A stretch of 64,000 nt of DNA. Origin: Leptolyngbyaceae cyanobacterium clean351 (lineage in GTDB: Bacteria; Cyanobacteriota; Cyanobacteriia; DAIDHW01). The notes below the pieces were generated by a model. The model made no database searches. It saw only the letters and a list, made by a program, of their open reading frames with translations, and had not been told where the DNA came from. The position numbers were made by a program, and so were the translations under genes. Positions 53,984 to 57,567 of this stretch are shown here, one piece after another. Positions within the stretch are counted from its first letter, which is position 1. Every line of letters begins with the position of its first letter. The stretch lies in NCBI GenBank assembly GCA_027451865.1, contig DAIDHW010000001.1, forward strand, positions 269,798 through 333,797, written 5' to 3'.

Positions 53984-54066
53984 ATCGTTCATCTCTCCTG
54001 TTGAAACCCGACCACTCGGGTCGCTGGAGAGACGGAAGTAGGGATTGTCCCCAAGGAACGCGCCTA
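53984..54066 (+). promoter_or_regulatory. Glutamine riboswitch (glnA RNA / Downstream-peptide family)
   Basis: The strand reads ATCGTTCATCTCTCC ... GGAGAGACGGAAGTAGGG ... CCCCAAGGAACGCGCC, the conserved blocks of the glnA RNA motif. CGTTC (53986-53990) pairs with GAACG (54056-54060) as P1; TCTCTCC (53992-53998) pairs with GGAGAGA (54026-54032), capped by a CCCGA/TCGGG hairpin (54007-54020); GGGA/TCCC forms the third stem. This aptamer binds L-glutamine in cyanobacteria. It lies 27 nt before a 71-codon gene, the arrangement typical of the Downstream-peptide class. Confidence 0.85.
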
Positions 54067-54092
54067 ACATCTCCACCCTGAGGCACAATTCC

Positions 54093-54308
54093 ATGACGTT
54101 TTCTAATTTGGCCGTTGTAGCACCGACCTATCATCAAGGGGTCAATCCCACCCCCTCCCCCGTCTCCTCCGGGAGCTACCTGGGGGGGACGCTGGTATTT
54201 GTGGCCTTGGCCGTGATGGTGATAACTGGGCTAGCAAGTGCCGGGGTCCTGCAGCCCCGGGAGACAGTCAAGTCCCGCCTGGGTCAGGCTTCTGGTCCAG
54301 CCCACTAA
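54093..54308 (+). CDS. Small single-helix membrane protein under glutamine-riboswitch control
   Basis: 71 residues from ATG 54093. A Pro/Ser-rich N-terminus (PTPSPVSSGSY) is followed by one membrane helix, LGGTLVFVALAVMVITGLASAGVL (about residues 32-55), then a basic soluble tail (QPRETVKSRLGQ). I do not recognise it. It is unlike the soluble glutamine-synthetase inactivating factors (GifA/GifB) that riboswitches control in other cyanobacteria, because it has a membrane helix. An intrinsic terminator follows 32 nt after its stop, so it is a stand-alone transcript. Neighbours are PII paralogues. Confidence 0.72.
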   Translation: MTFSNLAVVAPTYHQGVNPTPSPVSSGSYLGGTLVFVALAVMVITGLASAGVLQPRETVKSRLGQASGPAH

Positions 54309-54339
54309 CACCATCACGCTATAATCTCTCTATCCCGAA

Positions 54340-54368
54340 AGCCGCGTCAGACTGACGCGGCTTTTTTG
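54340..54368 (+). terminator. Intrinsic terminator of the riboswitch transcript
   Basis: AAGCCGCGTCA, short GAC loop, TGACGCGGCTT, then TTTTTG. Strong GC stem of about 11 bp with a T-run, shortly after the small membrane-protein gene. It also lies just after the 3' end of the convergent PII gene. Confidence 0.9.
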
Positions 54369-54976: not shown

Positions 54977-55004
54977 AAAAAAGCCACGCCCTAAAGACGT
55001 GGCT
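54977..55004 (-). terminator. Intrinsic terminator after PII paralogue 2
   Basis: On the minus strand, AGCCACG (55004-54998), 9-nt loop, CGTGGCT (54988-54982), then a T-run (54981-54977). It ends the permease-small protein-PII transcript. Confidence 0.85.
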
Positions 55005-55043: not shown

Positions 55044-55430
55044 CTAGCCCACGGGAGCTTCGGCCTCCTCGGGGGTGAGGGCAGCAACATCGGTTTCGTT
55101 GGTGCGGATCCGGACTGCCTTGGAGACTGGGATCACAAACACCTTGCCATCGCCGATCTTGCCGGTGTGGGCGGTTTTGACGATGGTGTCTACCACGGCA
55201 TCGGTGAGCTCAGAGGGCACCACCATTTCCAATTTCACCTTGGGGATAAAGTCAACCACAAAGGGCTGACGTTCCATGTTGTAGAGGCCGAGAAAAGCCA
55301 AGGGGTGACCTTTCTGCCGCCCGAAGCCCTTGACGCCACTGACCGTCATGCCTTGGATGCCAGCTTTAATCAGCGCTTCCTTCACTTCATCCAGCTTAGA
55401 AGGCTGAATTACCGCCATGATTAAGTCCAT
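55044..55430 (-). CDS. PII-family signal protein with variant T-loop (paralogue 2)
   Basis: 128 residues, closely similar to the PII paralogue 263 nt away. GMTVSGVKGFGRQKG, FIPKVKLEMVVP, TGKIGDGKVFVIPV and VRIRTNET are present. The T-loop is again 17 residues long between GRQKG and VDF (HPLAFLGLYNMERQPFV), without Ser49/Tyr51. It lies 34 nt downstream of the small membrane gene and 290 nt downstream of the permease stop on the same strand, and is followed by an intrinsic terminator. I infer that it controls the permease or the small protein, as GlnK does with AmtB. Confidence 0.88.
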   Translation of the reverse strand: MDLIMAVIQPSKLDEVKEALIKAGIQGMTVSGVKGFGRQKGHPLAFLGLYNMERQPFVVDFIPKVKLEMVVPSELTDAVVDTIVKTAHTGKIGDGKVFVIPVSKAVRIRTNETDVAALTPEEAEAPVG

Positions 55431-55463
55431 AAGTTACCTTTTCCTGTGCGTAAAATGCTGGAG

Positions 55464-55622
55464 CTATAGACCCAGCGCTGTCTCAACCACCAAACCAAAA
55501 ATCACCAATCCCAGGAGCACCTTGCCGGCGGTTTGAAAACCTACCTTCAGGATTCGCCTTTGCTGTTTACGGGGGAGAGTCGGCCACTCCTGGGGGTCAA
55601 TGAACCATTTGTTTGTTGCCAT
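55464..55622 (-). CDS. Small single-helix membrane protein between permease and PII
   Basis: 52 residues from ATG 55622: a soluble start MATNKWFIDPQEWPTL, a basic stretch PRKQQRRILKVG, and a C-terminal helix VLLGLVIFGLVVETALGL. A GGAG-rich tract on the minus strand precedes it weakly. I do not recognise the family. Its place inside the presumed permease-PII operon suggests a transporter accessory or PII docking role, but that is inference only. Confidence 0.6.
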   Translation of the reverse strand: MATNKWFIDPQEWPTLPRKQQRRILKVGFQTAGKVLLGLVIFGLVVETALGL

Positions 55623-55654
55623 AGGGGAGAGGGTAGATAGGAGGAGAGATGAGA

Positions 55655-55690
55655 CTCTCCCGGGGTGCCCTGGGTACCGCTCCGGGAGAG
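55655..55690 (-). repeat. Stem-loop between permease and small membrane gene
   Basis: CTCTCCCGG (55655-55663) and CCGGGAGAG (55682-55690) form a perfect 9-bp stem with an 18-nt loop. It lies after the permease stop, with no T-run on the minus strand, so it is more likely an mRNA-stabilising or partially attenuating hairpin than a full terminator. Confidence 0.6.
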
Positions 55691-55719
55691 CTTCTGGGGC
55701 GGGGAAGCCAAAATCAGAC

Positions 55720-57393
55720 CTAGTAGTCTCGCTTCGATTCCCGCAGGGGATGGTCAATGTCGTGGGGGACTAAGATCGGCCGGCCAGTCATCATACTGGT
55801 GCCAAAGACGTAGAGGAACCCAAGACCAAAGAATACCACTGACACCCCGATGGCGATTTGGGCGTTGGTGGCCGAAGAACCCCCGGCGGTGAAGCCAAAG
55901 TAGAACACCCCAAACATCATGGCGAAGTTCATAATGGCCCCAATAATGGGGATGACCACGGTCTGCCAGACGTTAGTTTCCTCCCCAAGCAGATGGTCTA
56001 GGGAAGCTACCAGGGTAACTAGACAGGTCAGACCGTAAAAAATAAAGGTGCCAATGTTTGACATCAAGGTGACTTGGGTCAGGTTGTTAACATTGAGCAC
56101 TCCGTATCCACCGATGGCGGCCGACAGGATAGTCAGGAAGATGACTCCAATGTAGGGCGTGCCAAAGGAGCGGTGCAGCCGGCCAAAGGCCGCCGGCAGT
56201 TCGTTATCCGCAGCCATGGCGTAGGTGATCCGCACCCCCGTGGATAGGGAGGAAAGGGTAGTGCCTACCAAGGCCATCAGCACCGTGATCGCGAGCACCA
56301 CCACCAGTACAAAACCGTGCCCACCGAGGAGCTGGTCCCCTAGAATGCGCGCCATGTCCCCGATAGGGGCACCGGAAAGGGCCGCCGCGTCAAAGCCGGT
56401 AACGATGCTGCCCCCAGCGTACTTAGCGGGGTCAAGGCCCAGGGCCTTCACGGCAGCCGCAAAGTCGGTAATCTTGGGGTCTAGGCCGGAGACGAAGGAG
56501 GAGGCATCTTGGGCCTTATCGACTACCCCCGCGTAGGCGTTGCTGATAAAGAAGTTAGCCGCAAAGTACTCGAGGAAGTAGCAAATGCAGGCTTGAATAA
56601 ACAGGGAGAGAATAACCGCCTTCGGGATATCCCGCTTGGGGTTAATGGCTTCTCCCGCTAGGGCGGTGGCAGACTCAAAACCCACCACCAGCAAGATGGC
56701 GATTGTGCACTGGAACAGCAGGCCGTTGAAGTCGTGGGGTAACAGCACACTCACGGCGTTGGGGAATTCGTACTTGAACTCTGGATGTCCAAGGCGAAAG
56801 GCAATGAACATTATGCTCAAGATGACCAGAGAGACGATCTGGACAATGTTGATAATAATGTTTACCAGAGTCGACCCAGTCACCCCCATGAGGGCAATGA
56901 AGCCCACCAAAACCGCAAACACGGCACACAGGGCGATCTGGGAAAAGGGGTCAGAGGCGAAGTTAGGGTTGAACAGCTGACCAATGTAGACAATCAGCGT
57001 CCCCATGAAGGCTACCATAACCCCAGGGTAGACCCAGTAGTACAGGTGGGAGGACCAGCCAGTAAGAAACTTGACGACCCGGGCGAAGCGGAAGTGCTTG
57101 TGCTCTTCCTTGCTGAGAATGGCGACCTCGGCATAAAAGTAGGAACTGCCTGCCCCAGCGTTGGGGTAGGCCTTGGACATGGTGGCAAAGCAACTGGCGG
57201 TCAGCAGGGCAATCATCGTAGCAATGGCAATAGAGGACCACATGTTCAGGGCTGAGGAACGGGGGGCCTGCACCTGATAGGTGGTCCACAAGAAGGCCCC
57301 AGGAGCGATCAGGGCCATCGCATTGATGGTAACCCCGATTAAGCCTAGGGTAGGCTTAAGGCCTTCGGAGGCGGGAGATTCTGCACTGGACAT
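55720..57393 (-). CDS. APC-superfamily amino-acid/amine permease
   Basis: 557 residues from ATG 57393; a TTG at 57411 would add six. About 12 helices. The first, GLIGVTINAMALIAPGAFLWTTYQ, has the unwound-helix substrate motif of APC transporters; LLVVGFESATALAGEAINPKRDIPKAV is the conserved helix-6 block. A long extracytoplasmic loop (about residues 290-370) is unusual. Substrate is probably an amino acid or polyamine. It heads a minus-strand group with a small membrane protein and a PII paralogue. Confidence 0.85.
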   Translation of the reverse strand: MSSAESPASEGLKPTLGLIGVTINAMALIAPGAFLWTTYQVQAPRSSALNMWSSIAIATMIALLTASCFATMSKAYPNAGAGSSYFYAEVAILSKEEHKHFRFARVVKFLTGWSSHLYYWVYPGVMVAFMGTLIVYIGQLFNPNFASDPFSQIALCAVFAVLVGFIALMGVTGSTLVNIIINIVQIVSLVILSIMFIAFRLGHPEFKYEFPNAVSVLLPHDFNGLLFQCTIAILLVVGFESATALAGEAINPKRDIPKAVILSLFIQACICYFLEYFAANFFISNAYAGVVDKAQDASSFVSGLDPKITDFAAAVKALGLDPAKYAGGSIVTGFDAAALSGAPIGDMARILGDQLLGGHGFVLVVVLAITVLMALVGTTLSSLSTGVRITYAMAADNELPAAFGRLHRSFGTPYIGVIFLTILSAAIGGYGVLNVNNLTQVTLMSNIGTFIFYGLTCLVTLVASLDHLLGEETNVWQTVVIPIIGAIMNFAMMFGVFYFGFTAGGSSATNAQIAIGVSVVFFGLGFLYVFGTSMMTGRPILVPHDIDHPLRESKRDY

Positions 57394-57567
57394 GGTTCTT
57401 GAAGGTTTCAAGGAGTGATTAAGCTTCCAAGATCCCGGATCCCTTACCTAGGATTCTGTAGCCCAGAATACGGATAGTCCCAATCTACGAGAATGAAATA
57501 ATACCGATACGCATTTGTCATTCCCCCCCTTGCCCCAGTCGCCCAACTGGAGTTATTCGGCCCGCGG
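57394..57567 (-). promoter_or_regulatory. ntcA site: Permease upstream region with GTA-N8-TAC (NtcA-type) site
   Basis: About 170 nt between purQ and the permease. GTA-N8-TAC is at 57458-57471 (GTA, GCCCAGAA, TAC), 65 nt before the permease ATG. This is the NtcA consensus, but I see no TAN3T -10 box at the normal distance downstream, so the site could be activating with a weak -10, repressing, or chance. A TATTAT at about 57491-57496 on the minus strand could be a -10 upstream of it. Confidence 0.4.

Follow-up and report, generated by a model that had tools for sequence, protein, structure and literature searches.

A predicted nitrogen-regulated operon pairing an APC-superfamily permease with a long-T-loop PII protein in cyanobacteria

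Layout of the locus and upstream signals

The analyzed window (the whole stretch of DNA under study, 64 kb in length) contains a minus-strand array of three genes, in the order permease, 52-aa ORF and PII-1 (Table 1). The preliminary description had placed a permease, a small membrane protein and a PII gene on one strand with a terminator after the PII gene alone, and both points were borne out: the three genes are found on the minus strand, where no terminator-like site was detected between permease, microprotein gene and PII-1, the sole candidate between or downstream of them being a hairpin 3' of PII-1. Past this terminator, 262 nt downstream of PII-1, lies PII-2; together with a canonical GlnB encoded elsewhere, the genome thus carries three PII genes. 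No Rfam matches were found at the locus. An 87-aa ORF on the plus strand (54045-54308) encodes one hydrophobic helix and has no family match above cut-off; past it lies a strong terminator-like hairpin (54337-54365).

Table 1. Features of the permease-PII module, with positions in the window unless another locus is named.
Feature	Position	Strand	Evidence or remark
APC-superfamily permease	55720..57393	-	557 aa; PF13520, PF00324; 75-82% identical orthologues
52-aa single-TM protein MATNKWFIDPQEWPTLPRKQQRRILKVGFQTAGKVLLGLVIFGLVVETALGL	55464..55622	-	homologues; dN/dS
PII-1, T-loop 6 residues beyond canonical length	55044..55430	-	PF00543; residue table; clade support 99; AlphaFold2 core
Terminator-like hairpin with T-run, 3' of PII-1	54982..55004	-	terminator scan; fold z = -2.55
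PII-2, tandem paralogue of PII-1 (79% identity), equally long T-loop	54389..54781	-	past terminator
NtcA-type palindrome GTATTCTGGGCTAC	57458..57471	.	78 nt upstream of permease ATG
Permease insertion, ~35 residues (residues 293-327)	56413..56517	-	alignment of 21 permeases
Codons for six added T-loop residues LYNMER	55269..55286	-	exact placement alignment-dependent
YflT-like gene, example from locus L181	3600-4118	module orientation (reverse complement of stored locus)	equivalents in 19 other loci

The permease matched PF13520 (3.7e-18) and PF00324 (7.4e-17), its AA_permease_2 score (66.1 bits) being well above the Pfam cut-off of 27, and its ATG (57393) agrees with the start in relatives. 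Judged by its sequence, it is a member of the APC superfamily and a distant relative of CAT4 and GkApcT, to which it bears a weak resemblance, and the family points to an amino acid or an amine as the most likely substrate. The ~35 extra residues of the long form of the permease follow TM7 and were found only in the microprotein-bearing subclade. An AlphaFold2 model of the permease, with three close sequences as input, reached a pLDDT of 34.

The box upstream of the permease has the GTAN8TAC pattern of the NtcA regulon, and is similar to the box upstream of the genome's own glnB (GTATTTTGCGCTAC in the latter, GTATTCTGGGCTAC in the former). Of 23 loci, 18 have a box of this type in the 400 nt preceding the permease, whereas Markov controls predict 1.6 such loci (at most 5 in 300 runs); the loci are related and so not independent. 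We read this pattern as predicted NtcA control of the operon. Two observations qualify the reading: the class-II -10 box (TAN3T, ~22 nt past the NtcA box) was not seen at this locus, only one of the 23 loci having TAN3T, at 21 nt, and Pseudanabaena has no GTAN8TAC box.

The permease-linked PII proteins

PII-1 matched PF00543 over its whole length (9.2e-32; 109.9 bits, cut-off 25), and AlphaFold2 modeled its PII core with a pLDDT of 83 and a disordered T-loop. In a phylogeny computed without the T-loop columns, the permease-linked PIIs (24/24, PII-2 included) grouped in one clade (SH-aLRT 99) outside cyanobacterial GlnB, so PII-1 does not belong to the GlnB clade. No curated NCBIfam family corresponds to the long-T-loop clade, the best scores lying far under the cut-off. 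PII-2 was placed as sister to PII-1 (support 81), on a branch longer than that of PII-1; mixed trimers or split functions could result from the presence of two long-T-loop PIIs in one genome.

The T-loop of the linked proteins reads GRQKG-xPLAFLGLYNMERQPFxVDF, six residues longer in 24/24 than the canonical GRQKG-QTERYRGSEYTVEF. All 24 also carry Q9 in place of R/K9, and L47, P50 and F51 in place of R47, E50 and Y51, along with F46 and a small residue or Asn at position 11, where F11 is usual. The residues of the nucleotide/2-oxoglutarate site (Q39, K58, G87, K90, R101 and R103) were kept in the 24 sequences, as was D88. The replaced R47 and Y51 sit at the T-loop tip, R47 being the classical Amt-plugging site. 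A modifiable T-loop is found in many PIIs, though not in all. The known modification sites are Y51 and S49 (PMC6243067), and the linked PIIs lack both the Tyr51 of uridylylation and the Ser49 of phosphorylation, having F51 throughout and Q or K at position 49. In Synechocystis PII, the R9L substitution abolished binding to Amt1, NrtC, NrtD and NAGK (PMC6603209), and R9 is among the residues taking part in 2-oxoglutarate binding (PMC6243067), so the loss of R9 in the linked PIIs may also alter the binding of this metabolite. The pattern fits a protein that would still bind adenylates, and probably 2-oxoglutarate, and that was rebuilt for a different partner.

The long T-loop was absent from all 78 best non-cyanobacterial PII matches, every one of which has a canonical T-loop and no such permease nearby. 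In plasmids, no relative of the permease was detected and all PII matches were below 60% identity. Another divergent PII, with the T-loop GHSVIFRGFGSAAQF and no Tyr51, was observed in genus g14 (positions 1501-1840 of loci L006 and L007), on a long branch apart from both GlnB and the permease-linked clade. Two adjoining, strongly divergent PII-like frames (38-41% identity) occur in one further genome (G021:C1:3400321-3401102).

Conservation of the permease-PII pair and associated genes

Among the sampled genomes, to which all counts refer, the permease subfamily was sharply delimited (17 of 388 in the class; 8 of 42 in one family). The proposal of PII control relied on a neighborhood conserved in relatives, and such a neighborhood was found: a same-strand PII of the long-T-loop type follows the permease in 24 loci (tblastn table) from several cyanobacterial families, and the adjacency holds in every intact locus, i.e. 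every one with its downstream side assembled and a permease that is not a decayed fragment. The gap between the two genes is 13-16 nt in several loci. Since the genes flanking the module in this window are essentially not common to relatives, permease and PII stayed paired while their surroundings changed. G626 and G630 have an interrupted or split PII frame, G624 adds a further permease-PII pair distributed over two apparently abutting contig ends, and the contig of G653 and one of G617 stop within the permease. These data from relatives turn what had been a guess about PII control into a strong inference, drawn from sequence comparison.

Across 386 genomes of the phylum, the long-T-loop PII was found only alongside the permease, and the permease only alongside the long-T-loop PII; in G491 the permease is decayed and the linked PII gone, with GlnB retained. 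Both this exclusive one-to-one co-occurrence and the joint loss argue against an improbable alternative, namely a PII that serves as a general nitrogen regulator of soluble targets and is co-expressed under NtcA with a nitrogen-scavenging permease that it does not bind. The common NtcA-type box would account for co-expression without contact and the PII core is intact, as this alternative supposes, yet the loss of R9, R47 and Y51 together with a uniform T-loop insert suggests dedication to a single partner, and the PII's constant neighbor is the permease. The permease fragment of G491 (L179; G491:C15:57000-69000) comes from a genus in which another member, G632, keeps the module intact.

In the microprotein, the N-terminal half is positively charged and a single hydrophobic helix lies towards the C-terminus; by the positive-inside rule, the N-terminus is predicted to lie inside. 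No matches were found in Pfam or NCBIfam. Homologues (about 35-44% identical) occur in four Pseudanabaena, where they are located 3' of PII, and 23 C-terminal residues (RIASTLIVTLVAFSLIVEAMLGL) were recovered at a contig edge of G624 immediately 5' of PII, as in this window. Conserved motifs include KW...P..W..L...QQ..I...G and ...VET..G, and the dN/dS values among the Pseudanabaena copies (~0.12-0.24) indicate purifying selection. The gene is confined to one subclade (this genome, G624 and the four Pseudanabaena), in two gene orders, and its presence coincides perfectly with the permease insertion, yet on one branch, which amounts to a single event. Four weak matches to the microprotein in the phylum (E 6e-4 to 9e-3) were set aside as partial and near chance level, and none was found in viral contigs. 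On this comparative evidence, the microprotein is a real gene, associated with the permease-PII pair and optional to it; because it is absent from the other subclade, it cannot be essential to coupling everywhere. The earlier suggestion that control is exerted via the small protein is thus retained in part: conservation of the microprotein extends to one subclade, but the gene lies 3' of PII in Pseudanabaena and is missing from the other subclade.

In the other subclade, many operons carry a YnfA-family gene instead of the microprotein, abutting or overlapping the PII frame. Also frequent in that subclade is a conserved YflT-like, glycine-rich protein of 170-185 aa, encoded close to the permease-PII pair in 20 loci; G624 has one too. 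Conceivably, one of these other cassette membrane proteins (YnfA, the YflT-like protein or the microprotein) is the true target of PII and the permease merely its constant neighbor, as the position of YnfA and YflT-like genes 3' of PII in many loci and the contact between PII and YnfA frames would allow; this is still less probable, given that neither gene adjoins PII in this genome, where no YflT-like gene was found anywhere, and that the permease is the only partner present always. Least probable is a passively transferred cassette whose adjacency reflects recent common descent rather than function: its occurrence is patchy, but the pair is intact between subclades in spite of identities of ~60% (permease) and 67-74% (PII) and unrelated flanks, the upstream box is conserved, and the microprotein is under purifying selection.

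Comparison with known systems and proposed mechanism

The arrangement resembles AmtB-GlnK of E. coli (Amt1-PII in Synechocystis) in the adjacency of a transporter gene and a PII gene with a link to nitrogen, and in a PII with an ATP/ADP/2-oxoglutarate site and a T-loop as the likely contact. It differs in that the transporter is an APC permease rather than an Amt channel, and in the sequence and length of the T-loop, so that neither the Amt neighbor nor the R47 and Y51 typical of GlnK were found. SbtA-SbtB is comparable as a case of a PII-superfamily protein dedicated to one cyanobacterial secondary transporter, although SbtB responds to AMP while the PII of this locus has the profile score of a classical PII and carries the nucleotide/2-oxoglutarate motif, and SbtA is a bicarbonate transporter from a different family. 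With canonical cyanobacterial GlnB, the linked PII shares the PF00543 core and possible NtcA control through a near-identical upstream box, whereas its separate clade, Q9, L47, P50, F51, long T-loop and constant permease neighbor set it apart. The microprotein recalls regulators of the AcrZ, MgtS and WatS1 type, which are ~50-residue single-helix proteins co-encoded or associated with a transporter, but it has no sequence family match and also adjoins a PII gene. As a group, APC transporters are not known to form trimers, which counts against PII gating. A review lists Amt (AmtB), Nrt, Urt and SbtA as the transporters under PII control, and suggests that such control may be limited to transporters able to act as trimers (PMC10710835).

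The best explanation, for which we estimate a probability of about 0.7, is that permease, microprotein and PII-1 form a nitrogen-regulated transport operon in which a dedicated PII gates an APC permease; co-transcription, contact between PII and permease, the direction of control, the substrate and the role of the microprotein are inferred. Gene order, conservation, the PII clade and its residue changes, the upstream box and the selection on the microprotein support this reading. PII control of an amino-acid or amine permease, as proposed in the preliminary description, would thus be favored by the conserved permease-PII adjacency. Under nitrogen limitation, NtcA would switch the operon on, and the solute carried by the permease would be organic and nitrogenous, an amino acid or an amine being the most likely. 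The PII made along with it would be a specialized paralogue that kept its ATP/ADP/2-oxoglutarate site, acquired a longer and chemically different T-loop, and lost the residues with which PII proteins usually contact their targets. As 2-oxoglutarate falls, this PII would dock on the cytoplasmic face of the permease and shut it. In the subclade that has it, the microprotein would probably be an accessory subunit, with its helix packed on the permease, and its cytoplasmic N-terminal segment could help dock PII. The broader proposition that long-T-loop PIIs are an undescribed subfamily of dedicated gatekeepers of an APC-fold permease, assisted by the microprotein in one subclade, is one that we favor by a small margin.

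No case of an APC-PII pair was found in the open-access papers searched, and a PII-controlled APC transporter is likely to be new. Few nitrogen sensors are as widespread as PII; if the proposed gating is true, its control would no longer be confined to transporters considered trimeric, but would extend to a major amino-acid carrier superfamily. A one-to-one tie between an APC permease and a PII whose T-loop has been rebuilt would directly test the trimer limit and would show how T-loop sequence sets the choice of target. Such a pair would also suggest that cyanobacteria take up or release organic nitrogen in a regulated way.
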